Origin: Mesorhizobium sp. B2-4-3
GTDB lineage: Bacteria > Pseudomonadota > Alphaproteobacteria > Rhizobiales > Rhizobiaceae
Assembly (NCBI RefSeq): GCF_006442815.1
Contig: NZ_VFVL01000001.1
Location: 62,001 to 126,000, forward strand
Direction of reading: 5' to 3'
Length of the DNA: 64,000 bases
Shown here: positions 6,403 to 34,879 of the stretch, piece after piece
Layout of the letters: the number at the start of each line of letters is the position of its first letter
Numbering within the stretch: the first letter of the stretch is position 1
Position numbers and translations under genes: made by a program
The notes under the pieces: model-generated
Databases searched by the model: none
What the model was told of the DNA's origin: nothing
The model's input: only the letters and a program-made list of their open reading frames with translations

Positions 6403-6990
6403 TCAACAGGTGGCAAAGCCCAGATGGGCGCGAAGGCGGTTCTTGACCGCGACGGCGTCGCGCGGCGGTAGCGAGCGCGGCAAGTTCTCGGCGGTGATTT
6501 TCAGCACGAACAAGCGAGGCCCCTCGGCAGGGCGCCGCAGCTTTTCGCACAGCGCATCGACCTCCTCCAACGAACGCAGTTCGGCCACCTCCGCGAAACC
6601 GCAGGCGGCAGCGACCTTGTCGAAGCCGATGCCGCGGCCGGTATGGCTGGATTGCATGCCGGTCTCGCCGAAATGCTGGTTGTCCAGAATGATCAGGTCG
6701 AGGTTCTTCGGGCGCGCCACCGAAATCGTCGCCAGCGATCCGAAAGCCATCAACTGCTCGCCGTCTCCGGTGATGACCATCACCCGCCTCTGCGGCTGCG
6801 CCTGGGCAAGCCCGAGGCCGACCAATGCCGCGCCGCCCATCGCGCCCCAGAGATAGTAATTGTCGTCCCGGTCGCCGGCGGCATGCACGTCATAGCTCGG
6901 CGAGCCGAGCCCGGTCACCACCAGGGCGCCGTCGCGCGCGTCGAGCAGCCTCTTCACCGCCACGCGGCGATCCATCGTCGGCAATGTCAT
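6403..6990 (-). CDS. TPP-dependent decarboxylase, beta (TPP-binding) subunit, ComE-like
   Basis: 195 residues, about one third of a normal TPP enzyme. It contains the TPP/Mg motif beginning GDGEQL (about 75-77) and ending near LDNQHFGETG (N104), and the glycine-rich WGAMGGAALVGLG segment before it. This matches the TPP-binding half of two-subunit decarboxylases such as sulfopyruvate decarboxylase ComDE and split phosphonopyruvate decarboxylases. It starts 5 bp after the stop of the partner half. Which 2-oxo acid is used is not shown by the sequence; the following aldehyde dehydrogenase suggests an aldehyde product. Confidence 0.8.
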   Translation of the reverse strand: MTLPTMDRRVAVKRLLDARDGALVVTGLGSPSYDVHAAGDRDDNYYLWGAMGGAALVGLGLAQAQPQRRVMVITGDGEQLMAFGSLATISVARPKNLDLIILDNQHFGETGMQSSHTGRGIGFDKVAAACGFAEVAELRSLEEVDALCEKLRRPAEGPRLFVLKITAENLPRSLPPRDAVAVKNRLRAHLGFATC

Positions 6991-6995
6991 GTCAT

Positions 6996-7556
6996 TCACC
7001 ACTTCTTCTTGCCAAGCAGGCGCTGTCCGATGAGCACGGCGATCTGCTGGTCGGCATCGAAGGCCATCGCGGCCGCCTGCGCCACGGTGTCCACCAGGTC
7101 GGGGCCCGTCTCTGCCCGCAGCACGCTGAGGCCGATTGCCCTCAGCGAAGCCTCGGTCGCCTGCCCCATTGGCACCTGCCATGGATTGAACTCGGCCCAC
7201 TCGCCGCGCATCGTCACCAGGACAAGCAAGGGAAAGCGCGCCTGCACCGACAGCGACAGCATGTTGATGCAATTGCCGACGCCGGAGGATTGCATCAGCA
7301 CGACGCTGCGCTTGCCGCCGAGCCAGGAGCCGGCGGCGATGGCTATGCCCTCCTCCTCCGTCGTCAGCACATTGGTGACGACCTCTGGATCGGCGCTGAA
7401 GCGGCGGATCAGTGTGGTATGGCCGGCATCCGGCACATAGGACATCTGGTTGATGCCGGCGGCCTTGAGCACGTCATAGACCTGATCCGGCCACTGCGCC
7501 GAAGCTGCCGCTTGCGTGACTGTCTCGGCTTGTTTTGCATGCAGGCTCGCTGTCAC
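6996..7556 (-). CDS. TPP-dependent decarboxylase, alpha (Pyr-domain) subunit, ComD-like
   Basis: 186 residues. The segment LTTEEEGIAIAAGSWLGGKR (about 64-83) carries the glutamate that activates the TPP aminopyrimidine, followed by MQSSGVGNCIN, the usual Pyr-domain core. ComD of sulfopyruvate decarboxylase and the N-terminal part of phosphonopyruvate decarboxylase have the same layout. Together with the beta half it should form an alpha/beta heteromer active on a 2-oxo acid. It is the first gene of the minus-strand run and is divergent from the LysR gene across 101 bp, so the LysR protein is its likely regulator. Confidence 0.8.
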   Translation of the reverse strand: MTASLHAKQAETVTQAAASAQWPDQVYDVLKAAGINQMSYVPDAGHTTLIRRFSADPEVVTNVLTTEEEGIAIAAGSWLGGKRSVVLMQSSGVGNCINMLSLSVQARFPLLVLVTMRGEWAEFNPWQVPMGQATEASLRAIGLSVLRAETGPDLVDTVAQAAAMAFDADQQIAVLIGQRLLGKKKW

Positions 7557-12919: not shown

Positions 12920-13768
12920 TCACACGGCTCTGTCCCTGGCTGCCTCCAGCGAGTTCACGAAACGCAGTGAGCGCTGCAGGGCGGCACGAACGATCGGGAT
13001 GTCGACAGGCGTATTTCGTCGTTGCGGGTCGCGGTGCTGAGGGCGCTCCAATCGCAATGGCATTTCGATGCTGACTGGAAGCGCCGGAGGGAGCATGCGC
13101 CAGTATTTCAGGTAATCGACAGAGCCATCGCCGAGAGTGCAGAACGCCCATCCTGCGTCGCGGCTGACAACGTCCTTGAGATGTGCATGACCAACCGTGT
13201 CGATGGCCGCGGCGATATCTTCTGCAGGCTGCGTTGCCTCATGGCTATAGGTGAAGACGTTTCCGGCGTCGTGATTCAGGCAGACTTGGCCCGATCCGAT
13301 TTCGCGTACGAAGCTAGCTCCCATTCGAGCATTGCCAAGTAAATCGCCCCTGCCATGTCCGGGGTTCTCGAGCGCAAGAGCGACACCGGATTGCTCCAGC
13401 CTCGGCAAAACGGCATCGATCGCCTTTCGTATGCCCGCCTTTTTCGTCATCGGCCCGGCATTGGTAATCAGGAAGGATGCGCCTAGACCGGCAGCAAAGG
13501 CGATGCGCCGCGACAACGCATCCACCGCATCAGGCCCCGAAAGGTCGAGATGAGCCGATACGGCCTTGATCCCAAGCCCGGCAGCTTCCGCTGTTGCCTG
13601 CAGCCTTGAGGCATTCGTGCTTGTGAACATGCCTTCATCGAAATCGACATAGCCGCGAATAAAGGCCGGCTCCACATGCATGGCGCCGGCCTGCGCGATT
13701 TCTTCGATGGCCAATTCCATCGAATAGCCGTCGAAGAGCGCGGTCGATACCGATACGGTCCGAGGCAT
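12920..13768 (-). CDS. Xylose-isomerase-like TIM-barrel enzyme (sugar isomerase/epimerase or OiaC-like decarboxylase)
   Basis: 282 residues. Candidate divalent-metal ligands follow the AP-endonuclease-2/xylose-isomerase pattern: LENPGHG (E134), LNHDAGN (D167), HAHLKD (H194/H196) and IEMPLRLER (E235). In D-apiose catabolism a member of this superfamily, OiaC, decarboxylates 3-oxo-isoapionate to L-erythrulose, and here the gene sits 12 bp behind an ApnO-like dehydrogenase and in the same operon as a RuBisCO-like protein. OiaC is therefore the leading guess, but a sugar-acid isomerase in a separate pathway is equally possible. It is the last gene of the operon. Confidence 0.72.
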   Translation of the reverse strand: MPRTVSVSTALFDGYSMELAIEEIAQAGAMHVEPAFIRGYVDFDEGMFTSTNASRLQATAEAAGLGIKAVSAHLDLSGPDAVDALSRRIAFAAGLGASFLITNAGPMTKKAGIRKAIDAVLPRLEQSGVALALENPGHGRGDLLGNARMGASFVREIGSGQVCLNHDAGNVFTYSHEATQPAEDIAAAIDTVGHAHLKDVVSRDAGWAFCTLGDGSVDYLKYWRMLPPALPVSIEMPLRLERPQHRDPQRRNTPVDIPIVRAALQRSLRFVNSLEAARDRAV

Positions 13769-13780
13769 CGGAGACAGCGC

Positions 13781-14626
13781 TCAGGCTCCTTTGCCGTAGA
13801 CGATCAGTTCGGAGGCTTCCTTCACCTTGGCCGGAGACAGGGCCTCGCGCCAATCGTCGCGGACCACGACGCCCTTGGCGAAGCGCATCAGGCGCAGCGC
13901 CGCATCCGACGGCACTTTCGGGGAGAAGCCGAACCACATGGCGATCTCGACATTCAGATGGCCGATCAGAAAGTCGAGAGCGGCCTTTCTGGGAATGCCA
14001 TACTTGCGCTCGCATTCCTCGACAGCTTCGACCATCGTGTCGACGAAGGGCATCGCAACCATTTCAGACAGTCCCGGCTCGAGTATCGCCAGTTGCTCGA
14101 CCGTGACCCGGTGGCTTTCGATGATCGGTGACCACATCGCTTTGCACACCTCCTCGCCAAGCGCGTAGTGCTCCTCCGGACCTTGCATCAGGGCGCAGAC
14201 GATCGACTGCCTGGCTATGCCGCCGTGATAGTCGCGGCGAGCCGCCCACTCCGCCTCGTCGTTGAAAAGCGGGGGATGGCAGGGATGGCCGACAAAATAG
14301 GTCAGATCCGGCCGATCCTTCGGCAGGTCGCCGGCGTAAGGAGCCGCCGCATCGAGAATGAGAAGCATGGTGCCTTTCGCGAGCATCGGCGAGATCTGCC
14401 GCGCCACCTGGCCGATGATGTTGTCCGGCAGAGCCATCACCACGACATTGGCGCCGGGAATGCCCTCTTCCATGGTGACGGCCCTGATGTTGACCTCCGC
14501 CAGCCGCGCACGGCCTGCCTCGCCAACCTCTACGGCGCGGACATCGTAGCCCGCATCGATCAGCTTACGAGTCACGCGGAAGCCCATCTTCCCTCCTGCT
14601 CCCAGCAACGCTACGGATGTTGTCAT
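13781..14626 (-). CDS. ApnO-like NAD-dependent oxidoreductase/oxidoisomerase (paralogue)
   Basis: 281 residues. An N-terminal Rossmann motif (LLGAGGKMG, about 8-15), LDAAAPYAGDLP, and the family mark HPCHPP (114-119) are shared with the apnO gene at 21787 in this window, as is the SHRVTVEQLAILEPGLSE helix. ApnO proper oxidises D-apionate and rearranges it to 3-oxo-isoapionate. This copy diverges in the C-terminal half (WFGFSPKVPSDAA against the apnO version), so it may use another branched or C5 acid sugar. The ATG at 14626 has GGGAGA upstream and is preferred over 14641. It lies between the RuBisCO-like protein and the TIM-barrel gene. Confidence 0.75.
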   Translation of the reverse strand: MTTSVALLGAGGKMGFRVTRKLIDAGYDVRAVEVGEAGRARLAEVNIRAVTMEEGIPGANVVVMALPDNIIGQVARQISPMLAKGTMLLILDAAAPYAGDLPKDRPDLTYFVGHPCHPPLFNDEAEWAARRDYHGGIARQSIVCALMQGPEEHYALGEEVCKAMWSPIIESHRVTVEQLAILEPGLSEMVAMPFVDTMVEAVEECERKYGIPRKAALDFLIGHLNVEIAMWFGFSPKVPSDAALRLMRFAKGVVVRDDWREALSPAKVKEASELIVYGKGA

Positions 14627-14671
14627 TCGCTTCTCTCCCATTTGACTTGATGTAGCGCCGATAGCGCAGAT

Positions 14672-15967
14672 TTAACCGAACGCTTGCAGCGCGGCTTCGA
14701 GCTCCGGATGTGTGGCGGCATAATCATGCGCAGGAATGCCTGCTACCGCGGCGTCGAACGCATCGTGCAGGCTTTGAACGCCCGCGGCCGGTCCACCTGG
14801 ATGCGCCATGATGCCGCCGCCGCAGCAATAGATGAAATCGTTCGAGCCGAGCCCGCGAAAGGTCTCGGCCGCCTGCACCGCCGTCTGTCCGGACGAAAAC
14901 ACCGGCATCGCCGTATCGGGGCGGTCCGCCCGCTCGAACATCGGGGTCAGGCAGGCATGGGCCGAGGCCATCACCGACACATCCTGCTCGCAGAATTTGT
15001 TGGACAGCCCGTTGACGTGCATGTGGTCGATCCCGGCCAGCCGCCAGAACTTCTGATAGGCGAGATAGGTCATGCCTACGTCGGGAGAACGGCTGAAAAG
15101 GCCCCAGCCTGCGCGATGGCCGTGAAGAGCCACAGTTGAATGTCGGCGAGCCTCGATGACGCCCGATAGACCGACGGAGTTCAAGACGAGCATCGCGCAG
15201 GTCCCGCCGCGCCGACCAATCAGATCCAACTGACGCCGCATGGCATCGACATCTCCCGATATGTTGGCCGCGTACATAACCTTGTGACCGGTTCTGTCGG
15301 CATGTCTGTCTATAACCGCCATCACCGCTTCGAACCGCCGCTCGAACGGCGAATGCGGAGGATCTCCCATCAATTCGTCGTCCTTGATGAAATCCAGACC
15401 GGCCGCAATCAACGTATCGGCAAGGGCCGCTGTCTCTTCCGGGATGAGACCGACGCTCGGCTTGATGATCGTGCCGATCAGGGGGCGCCCTTCTACACCC
15501 GTCAGACGACGCGTTCCCTCGACGGCGAAAGCCGGCCCAGGGTAAGCGTCCGCGAAAAGATCGGGAAAGGTGACGTCCAGCAGCCGCATGGCCGAGAAAT
15601 GGTGCAGCTCGAACAAGTTACCGAGAACTGTCGACCAAACAGAAGCAAGGACGGTCCCCATATTCTCGTTGTTCCAGGAGAGTCCGACCTTTGCCCGGAG
15701 CAGTTTGCTGGCTTTCCCGTCTTTCGGGGACCTCGAAAATGGCAAGGCCTCATTCTCGACTTCCATGACATCGTCGATGAATTCGACGCGGGCTCCAAAT
15801 CTCTTCAGCAGTTCCGGTGTCTCTCCCGGGACGGCGCGGAAGGTTCCGCTGGATTGTTCGCCGGCCATTGCGGTTGCGGCAACCTCCAACGGATAGCGGG
15901 TTTCGATCAAATAGGTGGCGCAGAGACGACCATTCGATGCGGTTGTTCCGGCTGTGACATCACTCAT
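14672..15967 (-). CDS. RuBisCO-like protein (form IV), second copy (RLP2)
   Basis: 431 residues with the RuBisCO large-subunit fold: RLTGVEGRPLIGTIIKPSVG (barrel strand 1), FIKDDELMGDPP carrying the carbamylated lysine and metal ligands (K195, D197, E198), ALHGHRAGWG, and the loop-6 segment DHMHVNGLSNK with H317 and K324. The second lysine of the canonical KPKLG motif is serine, so it cannot be a true CO2-fixing RuBisCO. Related RLPs OiaX and OiaT act on 3-oxo-isoapionate-4-phosphate as decarboxylase and transcarboxylase/hydrolase. This copy is in an operon with its own GntR regulator and lacks an adjacent kinase, so its substrate may differ. Confidence 0.85.
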   Translation of the reverse strand: MSDVTAGTTASNGRLCATYLIETRYPLEVAATAMAGEQSSGTFRAVPGETPELLKRFGARVEFIDDVMEVENEALPFSRSPKDGKASKLLRAKVGLSWNNENMGTVLASVWSTVLGNLFELHHFSAMRLLDVTFPDLFADAYPGPAFAVEGTRRLTGVEGRPLIGTIIKPSVGLIPEETAALADTLIAAGLDFIKDDELMGDPPHSPFERRFEAVMAVIDRHADRTGHKVMYAANISGDVDAMRRQLDLIGRRGGTCAMLVLNSVGLSGVIEARRHSTVALHGHRAGWGLFSRSPDVGMTYLAYQKFWRLAGIDHMHVNGLSNKFCEQDVSVMASAHACLTPMFERADRPDTAMPVFSSGQTAVQAAETFRGLGSNDFIYCCGGGIMAHPGGPAAGVQSLHDAFDAAVAGIPAHDYAATHPELEAALQAFG

Positions 15968-15988
15968 GGAGCGAGCGTTAGCACCAAA

Positions 15989-16008
15989 ATGACATTATGT
16001 CATCATAT
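15989..16008 (+). promoter_or_regulatory. Predicted operator of the RLP2 operon (site 1)
   Basis: ATGACATTATGTCAT (15989-16003) is a near-perfect palindrome 22 bp upstream of the RLP2 start. With its extension it gives GACATTATGTCATCATAT (15991-16008), which recurs in inverse orientation at 16843-16860 with 17 of 18 bases identical. Position between the GntR gene and RLP2 makes it the likely binding site of the GntR protein encoded at 16047-16760. Confidence 0.6.
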
Positions 16009-16046
16009 GAGCTTGGATTGATAAAAAATTTTGAGAAGCACACTAT

Positions 16047-16760
16047 TTAGCCGCCGGCGCCGCCGGCCAACTTCGAATAGAGTTCATTGGCGCGGCCAAT
16101 GTGGTCAGCCATAGCGGCGCTCGCGCCCTCCGCATCGCCGCTGGCAATCGCCTTGTATATTCGTTCATGCTCCTCGACTGTGAGGCGTTCGGCGCCCTTC
16201 ATGGCGACGAGATCCCGCTTGAAGCGGGAAAGCCACTCGAGCATTCCCTTGGCCACAGCGGCGATCATCGAATTGCCGCTCATCTCCGCGATGACAGCGT
16301 GAAACTCCATGTCGGCGGCTACAAATCGCGTCTGATCGCCCTTCGCCTCGCGCAAATGACGCAAGGTCTCGGCAAGCCGCTCCAGGCTCTTGGCCGTGGC
16401 GCGCCGCGTCGCGATCCTGACCAGACCGGTTTCCAGCAAGAGCCTGACTTCCTTCAATTCTTCGAGCCCGCGGGAGTTGGTCGCCAGCATCATGACCATC
16501 GCGGCAGAGACCTGGTCGACAATCACTTCGGGCGTCGGATTGATTACGCGTGCGCGCTCGCCATGCGAAATCCTGATAAGGCCCATCTGCTGCAGCGACT
16601 GCATCGCTTCGCGGATCGACGGCCGGCCCACGCCAATCATGGTCATCAGTTCCTTCTCCGACGGCAATTGCGAACCGGGCGGAAACTCCGATGTCGAGAT
16701 CGCGGCCAACAGCCGGTCGAGCACCTCGACATACAACTTCTTCTTCTGGACCGGTTCCAT
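16047..16760 (-). CDS. GntR/FCD regulator, NanR-like, for the RLP2 operon
   Basis: 237 residues. Winged helix in about residues 8-75 with LPSEKELMTMIGVGRPSIRE and the NanR-type RISHGERARV turn, then an FCD domain with DMEFHAVIAEMSGN and EEHERIYKAI. It closely resembles in layout the regulator at 30105-30818, but the operators near each gene differ. The stop is 79 bp before the RLP2 start on the same strand, and a matched 18-bp site lies both in that gap and upstream of this gene, suggesting self-repression together with control of RLP2, the ApnO-like gene and the TIM-barrel gene. The inducer is unknown. Confidence 0.87.
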   Translation of the reverse strand: MEPVQKKKLYVEVLDRLLAAISTSEFPPGSQLPSEKELMTMIGVGRPSIREAMQSLQQMGLIRISHGERARVINPTPEVIVDQVSAAMVMMLATNSRGLEELKEVRLLLETGLVRIATRRATAKSLERLAETLRHLREAKGDQTRFVAADMEFHAVIAEMSGNSMIAAVAKGMLEWLSRFKRDLVAMKGAERLTVEEHERIYKAIASGDAEGASAAMADHIGRANELYSKLAGGAGG

Positions 16761-16842
16761 TCGCCCCTCCGTAATCCTTCTTCGGCATATCGACAGCGAG
16801 TCGCACGGGCAAACAAGCCCTGCCGGTCAATTGACATTACAT

Positions 16843-16860
16843 ATATGATGACATAACGTC
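16843..16860 (-). promoter_or_regulatory. Predicted operator of the RLP2 operon (site 2)
   Basis: On the minus strand this reads GACGTTATGTCATCATAT, matching site 1 at 15991-16008 in 17 of 18 bases. It lies 83 bp upstream of the GntR start codon, so it is placed for autoregulation. Confidence 0.6.
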
Positions 16861-16971: not shown

Positions 16972-17001
16972 GGTATGCTGGTATAACATGTAAATGGTAT
17001 G
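16972..17001 (+). promoter_or_regulatory. Predicted NanR-type operator with three GGTATR direct repeats (apiose regulon)
   Basis: GGTATG at 16972, GGTATA at 16980 and GGTATG at 16996 are spaced 8 and 16 bp apart. E. coli NanR, a relative of the regulator at 30105-30818, is known to bind repeated GGTATA. The middle copy sits in CTGGTATAACATG, matching the CTGGTATRA core upstream of apnO, the second transporter and oiaX. It is about 80 bp before the first CUT2 transporter gene. Confidence 0.6.
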
Positions 17002-17079: not shown

Positions 17080-18099
17080 ATGAAGTTTGCAACTGTGGCG
17101 GCATTTGCCGCCGCGCTGGCGAGTGTTTCGGTTCTACCGGCAATGGCGTCGCAGGACGCACCGGTCATCGCGCTGGCCAACGCCTATTACGGCAACACCT
17201 GGCGGCATCAGATGGTTGAGGCGTTCGAAGCCTCGGCCAAGGAAGCCAAGGCCGCCGGGCAGATCGCCGACTATATCGTCATGAACGGCGATGGCTCGGT
17301 CGCACAGCAGAACAGCCAGATCGCCGAATTGATCCTCAAGAAGGTTGATGTACTCGCTGTCGATGCCGCCTCGGAGACCGCCGTCAACGGCGTGATCGAG
17401 AAGGCCTGCAAAGCCGGCATCATCGTGATCTCCTTCGATTCCGTCGCATCGGCGCCGTGCAACTACCAGCTCAATTTCGACTTCAAGGGCTACAAGGCGG
17501 CCCAGGCCGAAGCCGTGTTCAAGATGCTCGGCGGTAAGGGCAATGTCATCCAGGTGCGCGGCGTGAAGGGCTCGGCGCCCGACAACGACATGTTCAACGC
17601 GCAACAGTCGGTGCTGGCCAAGTATCCCGACATCAAGGTGGTAGCCACCGTCTACGGCCAGGCGACCGCTTCGGTGGCGCAGGCGGCCATCGCCAATGTG
17701 CTACCCTCGCTGCCGCATGTCGACGCAGTGCTCGGCCAAGGCGGCAGCGACGATGTCGGCATCGCCCAGGCCTTCGTCCAGTATGGCGGCGACTACAAGG
17801 ATAAGATGCCGGTCATCGAAGGCGGCGGCGGCACCGACTTCGTCAAATGGTGGGCCGACGAGAACGCCAAGAACGGCTACCAGACGGTTTCGATGAACAC
17901 CACGCCTGGCATCGGCGGCGCCGCCTTCTGGCTCGGTCTGTCGCTGCTCAAGGGCGCCAAGGCGCCCAAGCTGATGATCATGCCGGTGGCGACGGTCGAT
18001 GCGAGCAATCTGAAGGATTATGCAAAGCTGCCGGGCGGGCAGATCATCAGCCCGAGCTACTCGCTGGACTGGGTCAAGCAGAACCTGCTCAGCAAATAA
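17080..18099 (+). CDS. CUT2 sugar ABC transporter, periplasmic solute-binding protein (RbsB-like)
   Basis: 339 residues with a Sec signal peptide ending near AMA-SQ (cleavage about residue 23). The mature part is a two-lobed type I periplasmic binding protein (ALANAYYGNTWRHQM, then ILKKVDVLAVDAASETAVNG) as used for pentoses and other monosaccharides. The start codon at 17080 has GGAGGAG 7 bp upstream. It leads a transporter operon whose control region carries the apiose-regulon operator, so D-apiose or a derivative such as apionate is the likely ligand. It is followed by a stable hairpin before the ATPase/permease gene. Confidence 0.87.
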   Translation: MKFATVAAFAAALASVSVLPAMASQDAPVIALANAYYGNTWRHQMVEAFEASAKEAKAAGQIADYIVMNGDGSVAQQNSQIAELILKKVDVLAVDAASETAVNGVIEKACKAGIIVISFDSVASAPCNYQLNFDFKGYKAAQAEAVFKMLGGKGNVIQVRGVKGSAPDNDMFNAQQSVLAKYPDIKVVATVYGQATASVAQAAIANVLPSLPHVDAVLGQGGSDDVGIAQAFVQYGGDYKDKMPVIEGGGGTDFVKWWADENAKNGYQTVSMNTTPGIGGAAFWLGLSLLKGAKAPKLMIMPVATVDASNLKDYAKLPGGQIISPSYSLDWVKQNLLSK

Positions 18100-18146: not shown

Positions 18147-18172
18147 TTTGTCCGCGCAAAACCGGAGGACGA

Positions 18173-20641
18173 ATGTCCCACATCGCCGTTGCCGTACAGG
18201 GCACCGCTGCCGCCCCTGCTGGACCGAGCGTCGTTTCGCTGAGCGGGATTACCAAGAGTTTTGGGCCGACGCTTGCCAATGCGGGGATCGACCTCTCCGT
18301 GCGGGCCGGCGAAGTGATCGGGCTCGTCGGCGGCAACGGTGCCGGCAAGTCGACGCTGATGCGCATTCTGTGCGGCGCGATGTGGCCGACGCTGGGCGCG
18401 ATTTCCTTTGCCAGCGAAGAGGTGCCGTTCGCGGCCTACGACACCGGCGAAGCGCAGCGGCGCGGCATCCGCATGGTGCATCAGGAGCTGTCGCTGTGCG
18501 CCAACCTGTCTGTCGCCGAGAATTTCTTCCTGGAGACCCCTGGCGACTCGGCAAGCCGGCCGGGCTGGCGGGCGTTGTACCGAACCCGCGCCCGCGCCGC
18601 GCTCGACGCCGTTTTCCCGGGCAACGGCATCGACGCCGATGCCGAGGTCGGCCATCTCACGATTGCCGAACGGCAGATGGTCGAGATCGCGCGTGCCGCG
18701 GCGACGCCCGGCGTCAAGCTGATCGTGCTCGACGAGCCGACCTCTTCTCTCGACCTCGACCGCTCGAAGCAGCTCAGAGCCTTTATCCGCGGGCGGGCAA
18801 AAGCCGGACTCGCCTTCATCTTCATCAGCCACAAGCTGCAGGAGATCATCGACATCGCCACCGAAGTCGTGGTGCTGCGCAACGGCCGCATGGCATGGCA
18901 GGGCCACGCCTCGGATGCTTCGATCGGCAAGCTGGTGCAGTTGATGGGCGGCGACGCCGATCCGATCCATCAGCACAGCGTCGCCGCCGCATCCTCGCAG
19001 GACGTGCTCGTGCGGCTCTCGGGAGCGCTGACGGCGGAGCTCGGCCGCGACGTCGACATCGTGCGCGGCGAGATCGTCGGGCTGGCCGGGCTCGAGGGCA
19101 GCGGGCAGAAGGAGCTGCTGCACGCGATCTTCAAGCCCGACCGAAAGCAGCAGGCGACTGTCGCCAGGCATGCCGATGCGGGCTTCATCGCCGGCGACCG
19201 GCAGAAGGAAGGCGTGTTCCCGCTGTGGAGCGTGCTCGGCAACATCAGCATCGGCGCGCTTGCCCGCCGATCGGCGCTGGGTGTCGTTTCCGAGCACGCC
19301 AACAGCGACACGGCGAAAGGCGCCGCCAGCAAGCTGCGGCTCGACGACAAGCGCTTCCCGTCCAACATCACCGAACTCAGCGGCGGCAACCAGCAGAAGG
19401 CGCTGGTGGCACGGGCGCTGGTCGCTGACACGCCGATCATCCTGCTCGACGATCCTACCCGCGGCGTCGACATAGCCACCAAACAGGATTTCTACCGGCT
19501 CTGCAACGAAATCGCGCGTGGCGGCCGGGCGCTGATCTGGCATACGACCGAGGACGCGGAACTGCTTGCCTGCGACCGCGTGTTGGTCTTTTCCGGGGGC
19601 CATATCGTCAACGAGCTGGCGGGCGGGGCTATTACCGAGCAAGCCATCGTCGGCGCCTCCTTCGCGCAACCGGCGGTCAGCCAATCCAATGCCGACAGCG
19701 AGCGGACCGCCATGGCGGGACTCGGGCGCAAACTGGTCAATGCCGCGCCGTTCATCGGGCTTGCCGCCGTGCTTGCCATCATGATCGCGATCAATCCAGC
19801 GGTGGCCTCGACTTTCGGGCTCGACCTTCTACTGATGCCGGCGCTGTCGCTGGTGCTGGTGACGGCGGCGCAGATGTTCATCGTCGGGGGCAGCGAGATC
19901 GACCTCGGTGTCGGCGCCTTCGCCGGGCTGGTCAGCGTGATCAGCGCCACGCTGCTCTACGACCAGCCATGGCTCGGCGCGCTGGCGCTGGTGGCGGCGC
20001 TCGCCGCCTATGCGGGGCTTGGCGGCGTCATCCAGGCGCGTAAGATCCCGGCCATCGTCGTCACGCTGGGCGCGTCCTTCATCTGGGTCGGTATCGGCTA
20101 CGCGCTGCAGCCGACGCCCGGCGGCGCCAGCCCGGACTGGCTGACCACCCTGTTCGGCTGGTCGATCGGCTTTATGCCGACGTCGATCATCATGATCGCG
20201 GCCGTGGCGCTGATCGTGCTCGTCATCGACCGGTTGCCGCTCGGTGTGGTGCTGCGTGGCTTCGGTAACAACCCGGCTGCGATGATCCGATCAGGATGGT
20301 CGCCGACGCGCTATGCGCTGGTGCGCTATCTCATCGCCGGCCTGTTCGCGGGCGCTGCCGGCCTGTCGCTGACGGCCATCAACACTGCGAGCGACATCAA
20401 CTCCGGCAATTCCTTCACGCTGCTCAGCGTCGCCGCGGTGGTGATGGGCGGCTGCTCGCTGCTCGGCGGCATCATTTCGCCGGTCGGCGCCGTCGCCGGC
20501 GCGGTGACGCTGTCGCTGATCGGCGCGCTTCTGGGCACGCTCAGCGTCAGCAGCGACTACAACGCCGCCACGCAAGGGTTGATCCTGATCGCGCTGCTCA
20601 CCTTGCGCAGCCTGACCGCCGATCGCAGGAGCGAGTCATGA
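18173..20641 (+). CDS. CUT2 sugar ABC transporter: RbsA-type double ATPase fused to RbsC-type permease
   Basis: 822 residues. Residues about 20-510 form two ATPase domains: first with Walker A GGNGAGKST (53-61), signature LTIAERQMVEIARA and Walker B IVLDEPTSSL; second with the degenerate GLEGSGQKE and the signature ELSGGNQQKALVARA. From about residue 523 a hydrophobic RbsC-like permease follows with eight or more membrane segments and VGGSEIDLGVGAFAGLVS, the usual permease core. Separate genes are the rule; here one chain holds both. I chose the ATG at 18173 with GGAGGA upstream. It overlaps the next permease by 4 bp, giving a transporter with two different permeases. Confidence 0.88.
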   Translation: MSHIAVAVQGTAAAPAGPSVVSLSGITKSFGPTLANAGIDLSVRAGEVIGLVGGNGAGKSTLMRILCGAMWPTLGAISFASEEVPFAAYDTGEAQRRGIRMVHQELSLCANLSVAENFFLETPGDSASRPGWRALYRTRARAALDAVFPGNGIDADAEVGHLTIAERQMVEIARAAATPGVKLIVLDEPTSSLDLDRSKQLRAFIRGRAKAGLAFIFISHKLQEIIDIATEVVVLRNGRMAWQGHASDASIGKLVQLMGGDADPIHQHSVAAASSQDVLVRLSGALTAELGRDVDIVRGEIVGLAGLEGSGQKELLHAIFKPDRKQQATVARHADAGFIAGDRQKEGVFPLWSVLGNISIGALARRSALGVVSEHANSDTAKGAASKLRLDDKRFPSNITELSGGNQQKALVARALVADTPIILLDDPTRGVDIATKQDFYRLCNEIARGGRALIWHTTEDAELLACDRVLVFSGGHIVNELAGGAITEQAIVGASFAQPAVSQSNADSERTAMAGLGRKLVNAAPFIGLAAVLAIMIAINPAVASTFGLDLLLMPALSLVLVTAAQMFIVGGSEIDLGVGAFAGLVSVISATLLYDQPWLGALALVAALAAYAGLGGVIQARKIPAIVVTLGASFIWVGIGYALQPTPGGASPDWLTTLFGWSIGFMPTSIIMIAAVALIVLVIDRLPLGVVLRGFGNNPAAMIRSGWSPTRYALVRYLIAGLFAGAAGLSLTAINTASDINSGNSFTLLSVAAVVMGGCSLLGGIISPVGAVAGAVTLSLIGALLGTLSVSSDYNAATQGLILIALLTLRSLTADRRSES

Positions 20642-21678: not shown

Positions 21679-21712
21679 CGGGCAAATCATAGACGATTCC
21701 TCTTGCCAAACT

Positions 21713-21733
21713 CTGGTAGAGTGATCATACCAG
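21713..21733 (+). promoter_or_regulatory. Predicted apiose-regulon operator upstream of apnO
   Basis: CTGGTA (21713-21718), nine bases, then TACCAG (21728-21733) form an inverted repeat. The minus strand reads CTGGTATGATCACT, sharing the CTGGTATRA core with the sites at 16978, 22664-22672 and 30944-30952. It lies 54 bp before the apnO start. Confidence 0.62.
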
Positions 21734-21786
21734 TATGCAAGATGACGATTGGCACGGCCCGTCGTCTGAACATCAGGAGCAGATTG

Positions 21787-22614
21787 ATGACAACGATTGC
21801 GCTATTGGGTGCCGGCGGCAAAATGGGCTACCGCCTGTCGACCAATTTTCGCGGCTCGCCCTACACCATCCGCCATGTCGAGATCAGCGAAGCGGGCAAG
21901 GAGCGCCTAAAGACCGGGCTCGGCATCGACACGATGAGCGTCGACGAGGCGCTCGAGGGCGCCGAGGTGGTGATCCTGGCCGTTCCCGACACGCATATCG
22001 GCAAGGTGGCGGCCGGCATCGAGAGCAAGCTCGCGGCCGGCACGATGGTGATCGTGCTCGACGCGGCGGCGCCTTTTGCCGGCCACCTGCCGAAGCGTCC
22101 GGATCTCACCTATTTCGTCACCCATCCCTGCCATCCGCCGATCTTCAATGACGAAACCGATATGGCGGCCAAAAAGGACTTCTTCGGCGGCGTCAAGGCG
22201 AAGCAACACTTCGTCAGCGCCCTGATGCAGGGTCCGGAGCAGGACTATGCCAAGGGCGAGGAGATCGCTCGGATCATCTGGGCGCCGGTGATGCGCTCGC
22301 ATCGCGTGACCGTTGAGCAAATGGCGCTACTGGAGCCTGGTCTGTCGGAGACGGTTTGTGCTTCGCTGCTCGTCGTCATGAAAGAAGCCGTCGACGAGGT
22401 GGTGGCGCGCGGCGTCGACAGGCAGGCGGCGCTCGACTTCCTGCTTGGCCACATGAACGTGCTCGGCGCCGTCATCTTCGGTGAAACCAAGGGTGTGTTC
22501 TCGGACGCCTGCAACAAGGCTATCGAATTCGGCAAGCCGGTGCTCATGCGCGACGACTGGAAGCGGGTCTTCGAACCGGAAGAGATCGCAGCCAGCATCC
22601 AGCGCATAACCTGA
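21787..22614 (+). CDS. apnO: D-apionate oxidoisomerase
   Basis: 275 residues with a Rossmann motif LLGAGGKMGYR (about 6-16) and the family mark HPCHPP (113-118), followed by FNDETDM. In the described apiose pathway ApnO converts D-apionate to 3-oxo-isoapionate with NAD. I chose the ATG at 21787, with CAGGAG upstream; the open frame extends further but covers the operator at 21713-21733. It stands as a single gene between the two CUT2 transporters, with an operator of its own and another behind it. The assignment relies on its company: apsD, apnL, oiaX and oiaK are all in the same regulon. Confidence 0.82.
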   Translation: MTTIALLGAGGKMGYRLSTNFRGSPYTIRHVEISEAGKERLKTGLGIDTMSVDEALEGAEVVILAVPDTHIGKVAAGIESKLAAGTMVIVLDAAAPFAGHLPKRPDLTYFVTHPCHPPIFNDETDMAAKKDFFGGVKAKQHFVSALMQGPEQDYAKGEEIARIIWAPVMRSHRVTVEQMALLEPGLSETVCASLLVVMKEAVDEVVARGVDRQAALDFLLGHMNVLGAVIFGETKGVFSDACNKAIEFGKPVLMRDDWKRVFEPEEIAASIQRIT

Positions 22615-22651: not shown

Positions 22652-22672
22652 GTGGTTGACTCATCATACCAG
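22652..22672 (-). promoter_or_regulatory. Predicted apiose-regulon operator upstream of the second CUT2 transporter
   Basis: GTGGTT (22652-22657), nine bases and TACCAG (22667-22672) repeat the 6-9-6 inverted layout of the apnO site with two mismatches. The minus strand reads CTGGTATGATGAGT. TTGACT at 22656-22661 could be the -35 box, which the bound regulator would cover. It lies about 200 bp before the binding-protein gene. Confidence 0.6.
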
Positions 22673-27166: not shown

Positions 27167-28201
27167 ATGGCGACCTTGCGTGGAGCGCTGATCGGCTGCG
27201 GCTTCTTCGCCGTCAACCAGATGCATGGCTGGCGCGATATCGACGGCGCCTCGATCGTGGCTATCTGCGACCGCGACCCGGAGCGACTGAGAATCCTCGG
27301 CGATCAGTTCGGCATCGCGAAGCGCTACAGCGATGCGACCGCGCTGTTTGCCAATGAGACGCTCGACTTCGTCGACATCGCGACCACCGTCAGCAGCCAT
27401 CGGCCGCTGGTCGAGATGGCGGCCAGTAACCGCGTCCCCGTCATCTGCCAAAAGCCGTTCGCGCCGACGCTGGCCGACGCCAAGGCCATGGTGAACGCCT
27501 GCGCCGACGCGGACGTGCCGCTGATGGTGCACGAAAATTTCCGCTGGCAGTCGCCGATCCAGGCGGTACGCGCTGTGCTCGACAGCGGCGAGATCGGCAC
27601 GCCGTTCTTCGGACGCATCTCGTTCCGCTCGGCCTATGACGTGTTTTCCGGACAGCCCTATCTAGCGACAGGCAAGCGCTTCATCATCGAGGATCTCGGC
27701 ATCCACATCCTCGACATCGCTCGCTTCCTGCTCGGCGATGTGTCGAGCCTCATCGCGCGCACCACGCGCGTCAATCCGGCCATCGCCGGCGAGGACGTGG
27801 CGACGATGTTGATGGACCACGAGAATGGCGCAACCTCGGTGGTCGATTGCAGCTACGCGACGAAGCTTGCCACCGAACCGTTCCCCGAGACGCTGATCGA
27901 GCTCGACGGCTCGGACGGCACGATCCGGCTGGCGCAGGGCTACAAGCTCACCGTCACCGGCAGGAGCGGCACTAGCGTCACCGATGTCTCGCCGCCGCTG
28001 CTCACCTGGGCGTCGCGGCCGTGGCACAATATCCAGGAGAGCGTCGTCGCGATCCAGAAGCACTGGGTGGACTGCCTTGCCGATGGCAAGGAACCCGCCA
28101 CCTCCGGCGCCGACAACCTCAAGACATTCGCGCTGGTCGAGGCTGCCTATGCCGGTGCGGCCAGCCGGCAACCGGTGCGCATCGACGAGTTGCTCAAATG
28201 A
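27167..28201 (+). CDS. apsD: D-apiose dehydrogenase (Gfo/Idh/MocA family)
   Basis: 344 residues. The N-terminal Rossmann segment ALIGCGFFAVNQMHGW and the QKPFAPT motif (about 95-101, equivalent to EKP with the catalytic lysine) define the Gfo/Idh/MocA family; EDLGIHILDIARFLLGD carries the second catalytic histidine/aspartate region. In the described pathway ApsD oxidises D-apiose to D-apionolactone with NAD. It is placed 2 bp after the permease and overlaps the lactonase gene by 4 bp, exactly the expected enzyme order. Assignment by family plus context. Confidence 0.84.
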   Translation: MATLRGALIGCGFFAVNQMHGWRDIDGASIVAICDRDPERLRILGDQFGIAKRYSDATALFANETLDFVDIATTVSSHRPLVEMAASNRVPVICQKPFAPTLADAKAMVNACADADVPLMVHENFRWQSPIQAVRAVLDSGEIGTPFFGRISFRSAYDVFSGQPYLATGKRFIIEDLGIHILDIARFLLGDVSSLIARTTRVNPAIAGEDVATMLMDHENGATSVVDCSYATKLATEPFPETLIELDGSDGTIRLAQGYKLTVTGRSGTSVTDVSPPLLTWASRPWHNIQESVVAIQKHWVDCLADGKEPATSGADNLKTFALVEAAYAGAASRQPVRIDELLK

Positions 28202-30102
28202 CCGCGGATCCCTTCCTCCTCTACGGCACACGCGCGGTTGAAGCCGAACCGGTCCGGCTCCGTGCCGGCCCGCTCAGCGCCGATTTCGTCAACGGCAATC
28301 TGCGCAGCATCCGTCATGGCGGTATCGAGGTGCTGCGCGCCATCGCCTATATCGTGCGCGACCGCGACTGGGGCACCTATGAGCCGGTACTAGCGGATCT
28401 GGAGATCGAACAAGCCGACGATCGTTTCTCCGTGCGCTATTCGGCAAGCTGCGAAGCTCCTGGCGGTAGCCGGCTCGGCTTCCGCGCCACGATCGAAGGC
28501 CACGCCGACGGCCGTCTCAGCTTCGATGTGGGTGCGCTGCCCGAGAACGATTTCGAGACCAACCGCTGCGGCTTCTGCATCTTGCATCCAATCGCCGGCC
28601 TCGCCGGCAGCCCGGTCAAGGTCGAGCACACCGACGGCACCATCGTGGACACCAAGCTGCCGCTGCTGATCGACCCCTGGCAGCCGTTCAAGGATATGCG
28701 CGCCATCACCCATAACGTGCGGCCGGGCGTCAGCGCCGAATGCCGGATGGAAGGCGACGTCTTCGAGATGGAGGACCAGCGCAACTGGTCGGATGCTTCC
28801 TACAAGACCTACGTGCGGCCGCTCGCTCTGCCATGGCCCTATGTGCTGCCGGCCGGCCAGCCGATGCGCCAGACGATCAGCCTGCGCATCACCGGCGGCT
28901 CCAAGGAGACTGCCGCAGCAACCGGCGCCGAGCCGGTCCGCATCGAACCCGGCGAGACCGGAGCGAAGCTGCCTGATGTCGGTGTGGTCATCTATCCGGA
29001 AGATGTCGAGGCGGCGTTGGACAAACTGCCGCTGCTCAAGAGGCTTGGCCCACAGCAGCTTCTCCTCCATTACGATCCGACACGCGGCCACGGCCTGGAC
29101 GCCTTGCAGGCTCATGCCAGGCTTATCGCCGCATACCCGGCCGCGACAACGCTCGAGTGCGTGGTCGCCTGCGCCGGCGGTCTTGACGCGGAACTCTCCG
29201 GTGTCGCCGAGATGGTGCGCAGAGCGGGCCTGCGGCTCGATGCCATCGCGGTCTCGCCTTCGGTCGACCGCCAGTCGACGCCGCCGGGCAGCACCTGGCC
29301 AGACTGCCCGCCGCTCGAGGACGTCTACGCCGCCGCCCGCCGCGCCTTTCCGGACCTCCGTCTAGGCGGCGGCATGTTCAGCTATTTCACCGAGCTTAAC
29401 CGCAAACGCGTTCCCGCCGGCGCGCTCGATTTCATCACCCATTGCACCTGCCCGATCGTGCATGCGGCGGACGACCTCAGCGTCATGCAATCGCTGGAGG
29501 CATTGCCTTTCATCACAGGGTCGACAAGGGCGATCTACGGCGCGAAGCCTTATCGTATCGGACCCTCGACGATCCCCATGCGGCAGAACCCTTATGGCGG
29601 CGCGACCAAGGACAATTCAGGCGGCCAGCGCATAGCCATGGCCAATCGCGATCCGCGCCATGCCGGCTTGTTCGCCGCCGCGTGGACGATCGGCTACGCC
29701 GCGCGCGTGGTGCCGGCCGGCCTGGAGATGCTGACGCTCTCGAGCTTCACAGGATCGTTTGGTCTGCTTGCGGCCGCGGGCGAACCCGCCGAAGAAGGAA
29801 CGCCGCGGCCGATCTTCCATGCGGTGCAAGGCCTGGCCGCACTGGCGGGCCACACTCATGTCGCTGTGCGTCTCAGCGACGATCGCGTGGCCGCGTTGGC
29901 GGGCCACTCGCCGGCCGGCCTGACCACAGCCTGGTTGGCAAACATCACGTCGGATGATGTACCCGTCGACATCTCGGCGCTGGTTCGCGGAGCGCCAGCC
30001 CAAGTTACGATCTGGGACGGAGCGGAAGCGCGCAGGTTCGGCCCAGGCACAGTTCCGGGGCACCTCGCAATGCCCGCCTACGCCATAGCCAGGGTCGGCT
30101 GA
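28198..30102 (+). CDS. apnL: D-apionate lactonase
   Basis: 634 residues, no signal peptide. The opening LRAGPLSADFVNGNLRSIRH and the RDRDWGTYEP segment match what I know of the D-apionate lactonase family, which hydrolyses D-apionolactone to D-apionate. The middle and C-terminal parts look like a glycosidase-type barrel (ALDFITHCTCPIVHAADD). The ATG overlaps the apsD stop by 4 bp, so product and substrate enzymes are translationally coupled. It ends 2 bp from the end of the convergent regulator gene. I chose 28198 because upstream sequence belongs to apsD. Confidence 0.84.
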   Translation: MTADPFLLYGTRAVEAEPVRLRAGPLSADFVNGNLRSIRHGGIEVLRAIAYIVRDRDWGTYEPVLADLEIEQADDRFSVRYSASCEAPGGSRLGFRATIEGHADGRLSFDVGALPENDFETNRCGFCILHPIAGLAGSPVKVEHTDGTIVDTKLPLLIDPWQPFKDMRAITHNVRPGVSAECRMEGDVFEMEDQRNWSDASYKTYVRPLALPWPYVLPAGQPMRQTISLRITGGSKETAAATGAEPVRIEPGETGAKLPDVGVVIYPEDVEAALDKLPLLKRLGPQQLLLHYDPTRGHGLDALQAHARLIAAYPAATTLECVVACAGGLDAELSGVAEMVRRAGLRLDAIAVSPSVDRQSTPPGSTWPDCPPLEDVYAAARRAFPDLRLGGGMFSYFTELNRKRVPAGALDFITHCTCPIVHAADDLSVMQSLEALPFITGSTRAIYGAKPYRIGPSTIPMRQNPYGGATKDNSGGQRIAMANRDPRHAGLFAAAWTIGYAARVVPAGLEMLTLSSFTGSFGLLAAAGEPAEEGTPRPIFHAVQGLAALAGHTHVAVRLSDDRVAALAGHSPAGLTTAWLANITSDDVPVDISALVRGAPAQVTIWDGAEARRFGPGTVPGHLAMPAYAIARVG

Positions 30103-30104
30103 GG

Positions 30105-30818
30105 CTACTTCTCGGAGTTCATCACATAGAGGGCGCGCGAACGTTCGAGGTGTTTGATCATCGCCTTCTCGGCGCCTTCAGCGTCCTTCTTCTCAATACT
30201 GCCGACGATCTCTTCATGCTCGGTCAGCGTGAACTTTTCCTTGCCGGTCCAGATCAGCATCTCGGTATGGTATTCCTTCAGCCAGCCGAGCATCGCCTCG
30301 CTGACGGCGACATAGATAGGATTGCCGGAGATCGCCGCGATCTGGGTGTGAAAGCGCATGTCGGCGGAGATGAAGGCCTCGGCATCGCCGCGCGCGCCGC
30401 GCTGTTCGGCGACGGTCGCCCTCAGCCGCTGCACATCCTCGGGCGTCGCCTTCTCTGCCGCTTCCTTGACCATGCCGCGCTCGAAGAAGATGCGCGCGCT
30501 CTTCAAATGCTCCAGCGTGTCTTTCGACGACGACAGGATGATCTTGGCCGCGCCGTCGACCTGCTTGATGATCGACTTGGCGGTGAGCTGCAGCACCTTG
30601 GCGCGTTCGCCATGCGAGATGGCAACCAGGCCCATATTGCTCAGCGCCTGCATCGCCTCGCGGATCGCCGGCCGGCCGACCTCGAAGCGCTCCATCAGCT
30701 CACGCTCGGACGGCATGTCGTCGCCCGGCTGCAATTCACCGCTGGTGATCAGCCGCTTCAGCCTGACGAAGACTTCATCGGAAAGCTTGCGCCGGACGAT
30801 CGGTTCCGAACGGTTCAT
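30105..30818 (-). CDS. GntR/FCD regulator, NanR-like, of the apiose regulon
   Basis: 237 residues. Winged helix in about 8-75 with MPSERELMERFEVGRPAIRE and the NanR-type AISHGERAKV turn; then an FCD domain with DMRFHTQIAAISGNP and TEHEEIVGSI. NanR is known to bind repeated GGTATA, and CTGGTATRA sites lie upstream of the first transporter, apnO, the second transporter and oiaX, the last one in the 187-bp gap divergent from this gene. It is therefore the probable repressor of the whole apiose set; an apiose-derived intermediate would be the inducer. Confidence 0.88.
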   Translation of the reverse strand: MNRSEPIVRRKLSDEVFVRLKRLITSGELQPGDDMPSERELMERFEVGRPAIREAMQALSNMGLVAISHGERAKVLQLTAKSIIKQVDGAAKIILSSSKDTLEHLKSARIFFERGMVKEAAEKATPEDVQRLRATVAEQRGARGDAEAFISADMRFHTQIAAISGNPIYVAVSEAMLGWLKEYHTEMLIWTGKEKFTLTEHEEIVGSIEKKDAEGAEKAMIKHLERSRALYVMNSEK

Positions 30819-30937: not shown

Positions 30938-30952
30938 TACTCATTATACCAG
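30938..30952 (-). promoter_or_regulatory. Predicted apiose-regulon operator between the regulator and oiaX
   Basis: The minus strand reads CTGGTATAATGAGTA, sharing CTGGTATRATGAGT with the site at 22652-22672. Only one clear half-site is present. It lies in the divergent gap, about 54 bp before oiaX and 120 bp before the regulator, so it could control both. Confidence 0.58.
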
Positions 30953-31005
30953 ATTTCAGGCGCAGGGAATTCTTTTCCTGCGTTTTCGACTGGGTATTGC
31001 CGGCC

Positions 31006-32256
31006 ATGATCACCCTCACTTATCGCATCGAAACCTCGGGGAGCATCGAGGGACTGGCGGCTAAGATCGCCAGCGACCAGTCGACCGGCACCTTCGTCGC
31101 GTTGCCGGGTGAAACCGAGGAGTTGAAGGCGCGCGTGGCGGCGCGCGTGCTGGCGATCCGGCATCTGCCGGACGCGGCGCAACCTTCCATTCCCGAGGCC
31201 GGCAGCGGTCCCTTCAAGCGTGCCGATGTCGACATCGCCTTTCCCTTCGACGCCATCGGCACCGATCTCGCGGCGCTGATGACGATTGCGGTCGGCGGCA
31301 CCTATTCGATCAGGGGCCTGTCCGGTATCCGAGTCATCGACATGAAGCTGCCGGAGGAATTCAGGGGCGCTCATCCGGGTCCGCAATTCGGCGTCGCCGG
31401 CAGCCGCAGGCTGACCGGCGTCGAAAGCCGGCCGATCATCGGCACCATCGTCAAGCCGGCGCTCGGTTTGAGGCCGCATGAGACGGCTGAAATGGTGGGC
31501 GAGCTGATCGGGGCCGGTGTCGACTTCATCAAGGATGACGAGAAGCTGATGAGCCCGGCCTATTCGCCGCTGTCGGAGCGGGTGAAGGCGATCATGCCGC
31601 TGATCCACGACCATGAGCAAAGGATCGGCAAGAAGGTGATGTACGCCTTCGGCATCTCGCATGCCGATCCGGACGAAATGATGCGCAACCACGACATGGT
31701 GCTCGAGGCGGGCGGCAATTGCGCCGTCATTAACATCAACTCCATCGGTTTTGGCGGCATGGCTTTCCTGCGCAAACGCTGCGGACTGGTGCTGCATGCG
31801 CATCGCAATGGTTGGGACATCCTGACCCGCCACCCCGGCCTTGGTATGGATTTCAAGGTCTGGCAGCAGTTCTGGCGACTGCTTGGCGTCGACCAGTTCC
31901 AGATCAATGGTATCGCGTCCAAGTACTGGGAGCCGGATGACTCCTTCGTCCGCTCTTTCGAGGCGGTGGCGACGCCGATGTTTTCGCCTGAGGATTGCGC
32001 GCTGCCCGTGGCCTGCTCCGGCCAATGGGGTGGACAGGCGCCGGAAACCTATCGACGTACAGGACGCACGATTGACCTGCTTTACCTCTGCGGCGGCGGC
32101 ATTGTCAGCCATCCGGACGGACCGGGAGCCGGCGTGCGCGCCGTGCTGCAGGCCTGGCAGGCAGCGGTCGAGGGTATTCCGCTGACGGAATTTGCCAAAG
32201 CCCATGTGGAACTGGCGCGCTCGATCGAGAAATTCGCCGACGGCAAGGCGGCCTGA
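31006..32256 (+). CDS. oiaX: RuBisCO-like protein, 3-oxo-isoapionate-4-phosphate decarboxylase (RLP1)
   Basis: 416 residues with the RuBisCO large-subunit fold: GTIVKPALGL at strand 1, FIKDDEKLMSP with carbamylated lysine and metal ligands (K176, D178, E179), HAHRNGWDIL, and loop 6 QFQINGIASK ending in K306. Canonical H327 is replaced by glutamine (Q299) and the second lysine of KPKLG by alanine, so it does not fix CO2. It stands directly before the kinase oiaK, lerI and derI, the arrangement expected for OiaX, which decarboxylates 3-oxo-isoapionate-4-P to L-erythrulose-1-P. OiaT-type transcarboxylase activity is the alternative, but the isomerase genes favour OiaX. Confidence 0.8.
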   Translation: MITLTYRIETSGSIEGLAAKIASDQSTGTFVALPGETEELKARVAARVLAIRHLPDAAQPSIPEAGSGPFKRADVDIAFPFDAIGTDLAALMTIAVGGTYSIRGLSGIRVIDMKLPEEFRGAHPGPQFGVAGSRRLTGVESRPIIGTIVKPALGLRPHETAEMVGELIGAGVDFIKDDEKLMSPAYSPLSERVKAIMPLIHDHEQRIGKKVMYAFGISHADPDEMMRNHDMVLEAGGNCAVININSIGFGGMAFLRKRCGLVLHAHRNGWDILTRHPGLGMDFKVWQQFWRLLGVDQFQINGIASKYWEPDDSFVRSFEAVATPMFSPEDCALPVACSGQWGGQAPETYRRTGRTIDLLYLCGGGIVSHPDGPGAGVRAVLQAWQAAVEGIPLTEFAKAHVELARSIEKFADGKAA

Positions 32257-34412: not shown

Positions 34413-34423
34413 AGGAGACGATC

Positions 34424-34879
34424 ATGAAGCTCGCGGTTGCAGGCGACAGCGCCGGCGAAGGCCTGGCCAAGGTTCTCGCGGATTACCTGAAGGACAGGCA
34501 CGACGTGTCGGAGGTGTCGCGCACCGAGGCCGGCGCCGATCCATTCTACGCCAACCTGTCAGACCGGGTCGCGAGCGATGTGCTGGCCGGCAAATATGAC
34601 CGGGCTATCCTGATCTGCGGCACCGGCATCGGCGTCTGCATCTCGGCCAACAAGGTGCCGGGCATCCGCGCGGCGCTGACCCACGATACGTATTCGGCCG
34701 AACGCGCCGCGCTGTCGAACAATGCCCAGATCATCACCATGGGTGCGCGCGTCATCGGCACGGAACTGGCGAAGTCGATCGCCGATGCCTTCTTAAAGGA
34801 GACATTCGATCCGCAGGGGCGGTCGGCCGGCAATGTTGCCGCTATCGACCAGATCGACGCAAAGTACAACGCTCGCTGA
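34424..34879 (+). CDS. derI: D-erythrulose-4-phosphate isomerase (RpiB-like)
   Basis: 151 residues, RpiB/LacAB fold. [20 protein letters not shown] carries the conserved catalytic cysteine and [20 protein letters not shown] the phosphate-binding region. It resembles Brucella EryI. It would convert D-erythrulose-4-P into D-erythrose-4-P, feeding the pentose-phosphate pathway. I chose the ATG at 34424, which has AAGGAG about 7 bp upstream; ATG 34409 in the same frame would start before that site and overlap lerI. It is the fourth gene of the oiaX operon. Confidence 0.87.

Follow-up and report, generated by a model that had tools for sequence, protein, structure and literature searches.

The closest described systems all act on 3-oxo-isoapionate in D-apiose catabolism. 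In the OiaC route, the oxidoisomerase ApnO is followed by a decarboxylase of the xylose-isomerase family that yields L-erythrulose, and no kinase acts before decarboxylation. Two others use RuBisCO-like proteins (RLPs): OiaX of Agrobacterium radiobacter K84 is an RLP decarboxylase, and OiaT of Xanthobacter autotrophicus has been characterised as an RLP transcarboxylase/hydrolase (Carter et al. 2018, as cited in PMC6302742). We analysed a 64-kb stretch of the 6.2-Mb genome of Mesorhizobium sp. B2-4-3 (G000:C1:62001-126000; hereafter the window), in which a four-gene operon, nanR2-rlp2-apnO2-xi2, lies beside a D-apiose gene set. Judged from sequence, 3-oxo-isoapionate probably has each of its three known fates at this one locus, and NanR2, the operon’s own regulator, would control two of the three routes.

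The operon would act as a NanR2-controlled supplement to the D-apiose set, working on shared intermediates. D-apionate would be converted to 3-oxo-isoapionate by ApnO1 of the apiose set or by ApnO2. Like OiaC, XI2 would form L-erythrulose by direct decarboxylation of 3-oxo-isoapionate; DhaKL and the TPI-like and RpiB-like proteins, all encoded in the apiose set, would carry L-erythrulose on to erythrose 4-phosphate. The neighbouring OiaK would make 3-oxo-isoapionate 4-phosphate, which RLP2 would split into 3-phosphoglycerate and glycolate in the manner of OiaT and which RLP1 (OiaX) would decarboxylate. No kinase gene lies within the operon, as a first-pass annotation of the sequence had reported, and this absence would be explained because the neighbouring OiaK serves RLP2 and the XI2 route needs no kinase before decarboxylation. 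Borrowing of OiaK and a non-phosphorylated route had been offered as alternatives; both appear to be true, the former for RLP2 and the latter for ApnO2 and XI2.

The locus resembles the OiaC system in having an ApnO-type gene beside one for a xylose-isomerase-fold protein, without a kinase, and in the DhaKL, TPI-like and RpiB-like genes nearby, but differs in that ApnO2 belongs to a separate clade and an RLP gene precedes the pair. With the OiaT system (Carter et al. 2018, as cited in PMC6302742) it shares an OiaK-linked RLP group, the catalytic residues and a neighbourhood of ApnO, ApnL, Gfo/Idh and sugar ATP-binding cassette (ABC) transporter genes, whereas here the kinase occurs only in the neighbouring set, RLP2 forms a separate, long-stemmed branch, and its gene is coupled to apnO2-xi2 and has its own nanR2. 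The neighbouring set holds RLP1, OiaK, TPI-like, RpiB-like and DhaKL genes, as in the OiaX system, but RLP2 does not reach the cut-off for OiaX, has neither of its substitutions, and a clade uniting the two is rejected. Literature searches returned no counterpart of the whole locus and no further characterised OiaC/L-erythrulose or OiaT enzyme. This combination of genes appears to be new, as do the diverged RLP2 and ApnO2 clades, but each part has a described counterpart. With a diverged OiaT-type RLP, OiaX and an OiaC candidate in a small locus open to assay, a single cell would allow a comparison of the residues that make an RLP scaffold a decarboxylase or a transcarboxylase/hydrolase, and the question is raised of why a phosphorylated route for a sugar acid is kept alongside an unphosphorylated one under a different regulator.

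Operon structure, control and distribution

The four genes run leftward on the minus strand from 16760 to 12920, with the gene types and order given in the first-pass annotation. nanR2 (16047-16760) encodes a GntR/FCD operon regulator of the NanR subfamily, which exceeds the cut-off of NCBIfam model NF003011 (287 against 260 bits) and has its own box beside the gene. It is followed by rlp2 (14672-15967), encoding a putative OiaT-type group RLP (PF00016, 211.7 bits), apnO2 (13781-14641), encoding an NAD(P)-dependent D-apionate oxidoisomerase-like protein of a separate clade (PF16896, 206 bits), and xi2 (12920-13768), encoding a xylose-isomerase-fold protein and OiaC-type decarboxylase candidate (PF01261, 54.9 bits). 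All operon genes are under purifying selection, with ratios of nonsynonymous to synonymous substitution (dN/dS) of about 0.1 for RLP2, 0.07 for ApnO2 and 0.2 for XI2, and because these are low the genes are taken to be maintained. Decay of the operon in Mesorhizobium sp. B2-4-3 is ruled out on the same grounds, although losses do show in relatives.

Two distinct boxes divide the two gene sets. The sequence ATATGATGACATAA occurs at exactly two sites in the window, upstream of nanR2 (16843-16856, plus strand) and upstream of rlp2, between it and nanR2 (15995-16008, minus strand), where 0.11 matches would be expected by chance even with up to two mismatches; it is retained in Sinorhizobium meliloti and is exact or near-exact in congeners. 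The apiose-set box, RTYATACCAG, has only four sites in the window (0.08 expected): one on the minus strand upstream of the second ABC transporter, whose first gene encodes the sugar-binding protein SBP2 (16978-16987), and three on the plus strand, upstream of apnO1 (21724-21733), of the SBP1 gene (22663-22672) and of oiaX (30943-30952). NanR2 presumably reads ATATGATGACATAA and NanR1 reads RTYATACCAG. Because the boxes divide the genes in this way, the nanR2 operon is controlled separately from the apiose set, as had been claimed at first pass, and we hold this more firmly than the reading of the locus as a whole. The second transporter is a member of the NanR1 set, since its box persists in a congener that lacks nanR2 (G033).

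A search of 36 Mesorhizobium-congener genomes found apiose-type ApnO1 in 20 besides the source genome. Three of these 20 also encode ApnO2 and XI2 (G028, G034 and G032), together with a NanR2 protein of 95-97% identity, and among the three RLP2 is present only in G028 and G034 (86-87% identity); in G033 a 27-residue RLP2 remnant lies beside the second transporter. Outside the genus, the whole operon occurs on plasmid pA of S. meliloti LMB1, with identities of 83% for nanR2, 77% for rlp2, 87% for apnO2 and 61% for xi2. Its neighbour on the plasmid is an apiose set that encodes ApnO1, ApnL, Gfo/Idh and an OiaK-like kinase; no OiaX lies within 33 kb, and the plasmid’s OiaX, which has a kinase of its own, is about 640 kb distant. 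The full operon adjoins an apiose set in every genome that carries it.

RLP2 and its relation to OiaT and OiaX

The relatives of RLP2 were surveyed at the 80 best genome loci, which span many phyla at 51-60% identity. An OiaK gene adjoins the RLP gene at almost all of them, and most of the OiaK-linked relatives are also accompanied by an ApnO, ApnL or Gfo/Idh gene. Placement was assessed with two maximum-likelihood trees and an approximately unbiased (AU) test. In both trees RLP2 and its three orthologues form a single branch (support 100/100) that is basal to the acidobacterial and proteobacterial members of the OiaK-linked group (bootstrap 98-99%), and a position within the proteobacterial members was not rejected (p = 0.25). 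Tight clustering of RLP2 inside the OiaT or OiaX clade had been named at first pass as a refutation of the new-pathway reading, and this is only partly borne out: RLP2 is a basal branch of the OiaT-type group and does not lie tightly inside it. In RuBisCO numbering, which we assigned from family knowledge, RLP2 retains E60, N123, K175, K201, D203, E204, H294, R295, H327, K334 and S379, as in the OiaT-type group, from which it differs at 10 other group-conserved positions. Its predicted fold is that of a standard RLP (predicted local distance difference test score, pLDDT, 90). The top PDB match in both structure and sequence is the Burkholderia fungorum RLP 3nwr (43% identity, TM-score 0.90-0.96), but 3nwr is farther from RLP2 than are the OiaK-linked relatives, and its entry title names no function. 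The undescribed RLP chemistry that had been proposed finds no support here, as RLP2 groups with OiaK-adjacent RLPs of apiose clusters and has kept the catalytic residues.

It is very improbable that RLP2 performs the OiaX decarboxylation as a redundant copy of RLP1. Both RLPs lie in one region and the OiaX model NF042437 is the best NCBIfam model of both, but RLP1 reaches 779 bits against a cut-off of 700 and RLP2 only 428. The OiaT-type proteins tested score 454-462 bits on this model, resembling RLP2 and unlike true OiaX; they include the RLP of Ancylobacter (same family as Xanthobacter), which stood in for the characterised OiaT in our comparisons. The AU test rejected a common clade of RLP2 and OiaX (p-AU = 0.0036), and the G at position 123 and Q at position 327 that OiaX proteins carry are both absent from RLP2. 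RLP2 is not an OiaX on these sequence criteria, a conclusion that stands above our confidence in the whole scheme, and the trees likewise rule out a recent duplication of RLP1. The divergence of RLP2 and the dehydrogenase from their apiose-set paralogues had been noted at first pass and is borne out (43% identity between RLP2 and the window’s OiaX, 52% between ApnO2 and ApnO1).

Another OiaK-linked RLP (L007:1501; G051:C19:76739-77974) stands out from the OiaT-type proteins around it by the unusual length of its branch (1.0), and an OiaX-like RLP is encoded in the same genome.

ApnO2 and XI2 as a separate module

ApnO2 has the PF16896 C-terminal domain together with a Rossmann domain and shares 48 positions that are common to at least 95% of ApnO proteins. 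Its clade, which also includes PDB entry 3c24 and proteins from two further Hyphomicrobiales genera (support 100/100), falls outside every OiaK/RLP-linked ApnO in the tree; a class-wide search found no further members. This placement rules out a recent copy of ApnO1. The entry 3c24, a putative oxidoreductase that we take to be from Jannaschia sp., is the best PDB match of ApnO2 (421 bits) but has no assigned substrate. ApnO2 may act on D-apionate, which we hold less firmly than the scheme as a whole, and the clade and 3c24 would thereby gain a candidate substrate.

XI2 has the fold expected of OiaC, that of a xylose-isomerase-fold metalloenzyme: alongside the PF01261 match, the metal-ligand pattern E134, D167, H196 and E235 is invariant in 13 relatives. 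No meaningful NCBIfam or PDB match was found, and a single-sequence structure model was poor (pLDDT 52) and was not used. The fold had been recognised at first pass, but the candidacy as OiaC had been missed. A relative of XI2 is encoded close to the ApnO2 gene at all eight loci viewed, which span five genera (the window, G028, G034, G032, S. meliloti, G280, G341 and G261). One congener (G032) has nanR2, apnO2 and xi2 without rlp2, and G261, a genome that is about 100% complete, has the ApnO2-XI2 pair and no RLP at all; its only DUF1537 kinase is distant (136 bits), and a DhaK gene lies about 8 kb from xi2. ApnO2-XI2 is a module separate from RLP2.

The clusters that hold this module resemble those of the kinase and RLP routes. 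The binding proteins of G341 and G261 share 59-74% identity with their counterparts in kinase/RLP apiose clusters (L075, L064, L110 and L060), and the Gfo/Idh protein of G261 shares 55-60% identity with the corresponding proteins there (L110, L064 and L075). The pair thus seems to replace OiaK and RLP for the same imported sugar, and because it does so while the transporter and sugar dehydrogenase stay the same, it is best read as an ApnO with an OiaC-type decarboxylase; the pairing with ApnO in the absence of OiaK and RLP, as in the OiaC context, is seen in G261. The new sugar acid invoked at first pass is not needed on this account. Both types of route occur in one genome in G280 (OiaX and OiaK) and in G341 (OiaT-type RLP and OiaK), each of which also has ApnO2-XI2. 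Apiose clusters without OiaK were also sought through ApnL, which yielded several kinds of lactonase cluster and no further XI2 relative.

PF01261 proteins are mostly isomerases and epimerases, and XI2 could be one of these, for example acting on erythrulose, in which case the operon would have no direct decarboxylation route. In Rhizobium, Shinella, Pasteurella and Klebsiella, distant XI2 relatives (24-40% identity) have DhaKL, RpiB, TPI and transketolase genes beside them, in agreement with such a role, but XI2-type proteins pair with ApnO2 at eight loci in five genera, and in G261, without an RLP or a close OiaK, some enzyme must process the ApnO product. We consider an isomerase or epimerase rather unlikely, and the OiaC-type decarboxylase remains the best reading of XI2.

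The distant XI2 relatives have surroundings of their own (L115:11992-14509, L116:11992-17403, L118:3572-10843 and L119:8172-19860). Those of Rhizobium and Shinella adjoin DhaK/DhaL genes, and those of Klebsiella and Pasteurella lie beside genes for dihydroxyacetone kinase, RpiB, TPI, transaldolase and transketolase; some of the loci also have tripartite ATP-independent periplasmic (TRAP) transporters. These loci are possibly tetrulose pathways.

Several features weigh against the combination of three fates at this locus. The class of RLP2 as OiaT-type is inferred from relatives such as Ancylobacter and from context, and that of XI2 as an OiaC-type candidate, which we hold below our confidence in the whole, from context and fold family only. 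The stem of the RLP2 clade is long (0.54 changes per column), and OiaK, which usually accompanies the RLP in this group but is not known to be required, is within the RLP2 operon in none of four genomes; it is present in the adjacent apiose set in all four. The ApnO2 stem is longer still (0.85), with 10 clade-specific substitutions at positions where conservation among the other ApnO proteins is 90% or more, of which F139H, A166C, T194M and A251L fall at positions otherwise invariant.

The divergence of ApnO2 would fit a role of ApnO2, XI2 and RLP2 in breaking down some branched or C5 sugar acid that is not D-apionate. ApnO2 would then be an oxidoisomerase with a changed substrate, its product would be isomerised or decarboxylated by XI2, and OiaK or another DUF1537 kinase would supply the phosphorylated analogue on which RLP2 acts. 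The long stem of a clade outside every OiaK/RLP-linked ApnO and the changes at invariant positions make the strongest remaining case for a new acid; the operon’s own regulator and box, and the presence of ApnO2-XI2 in G280 besides a complete OiaX/OiaK set elsewhere in that genome, point the same way. However, the likeness of the G341 and G261 binding proteins and of the G261 Gfo/Idh protein to those of kinase/RLP apiose clusters, the catalytic residues that RLP2 retains from its OiaK-linked relatives and the constant adjacency of the full operon to an apiose set argue for D-apionate, and we regard another acid as unlikely. If true, ApnO2-XI2, found in several Hyphomicrobiales genera, would be an undescribed oxidoisomerase pathway, with RLP2 specialised to its phosphorylated product.

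The neighbouring D-apiose set and further RuBisCO-superfamily genes

The apiose set lies on the plus strand beside the operon, except for nanR1, and comprises two sugar ABC transporters, ApnO1, Gfo/Idh, ApnL, OiaX, OiaK-like, TPI-like, RpiB-like, DhaK and DhaL genes. The second transporter consists of SBP2 (17080-18099; PF13407; 75% identical to its G112 counterpart and 65% to that of the S. meliloti apiose cluster) and an open reading frame (ORF) in which the ATP-binding and permease parts are fused (18170-20641; PF00005 and PF02653). The D-apionate oxidoisomerase gene apnO1 (21706-22614; PF16896, 239.9 bits), whose start may lie further in, belongs to the OiaK/RLP-linked ApnO clade. A Gfo/Idh/MocA oxidoreductase (27167-28201) is the D-apiose dehydrogenase candidate, in a gene order as in other apiose clusters and with no NCBIfam model over cut-off, and is followed by the D-apionate lactonase gene apnL (28195-30102; NF049900, 935.7 bits against 750) and, on the minus strand, by the apiose-set regulator gene nanR1 (30105-30818; NF003011, 354 bits, over cut-off).

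The 3-oxo-isoapionate-4-phosphate decarboxylase gene oiaX, encoding RLP1, occupies 30997-32256, and directly behind it lies the predicted DUF1537-type 3-oxo-isoapionate kinase gene oiaK (32259-33590), which scores 466 bits on NF042436, below the cut-off of 700. The TPI-like L-erythrulose-1-phosphate isomerase candidate (33645-34412; NF000722, 419 bits) is followed by an RpiB-like isomerase ORF (34301-34879), read from its translation and with its true start probably inside; an RpiB gene occupies the equivalent place in Rhizobium sp. C104. The set also has a dhaK-type subunit of an L-erythrulose kinase candidate (34990-35997; dihydroxyacetone kinase models) and a dhaL-type subunit (36003-36611; TIGR02365, 171 bits, over cut-off).

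About 48 kb to the left of the window lies a gene for a true RuBisCO large chain (G000:C1:12601-13524; PF00016, 450.9 bits), and this gene and the two RLP genes fall within about 82 kb on one contig. In other genomes, RLP and DUF1537 kinase pairs occur with a short-chain dehydrogenase/reductase (SDR) gene nearby (L148:9004-12470, L150:6993-11643, L151:9001-12382 and L152:9001-15367) and with no ApnO gene within about 9 kb. In L148 and L151 the SDR gene immediately follows the pair, LysR and 2-keto-3-deoxygluconate (KDG) permease or TRAP transporter genes are found in L148 and L150, and the RLP tree puts the proteins of L150 and L152 on a branch of their own; these pairs may serve another acid. 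Elsewhere in the window, two adjoining minus-strand ORFs (6403-7556), beside aldehyde dehydrogenase, SDR and LysR genes, read as halves of a thiamine-diphosphate-dependent sulfopyruvate or phosphonopyruvate decarboxylase.

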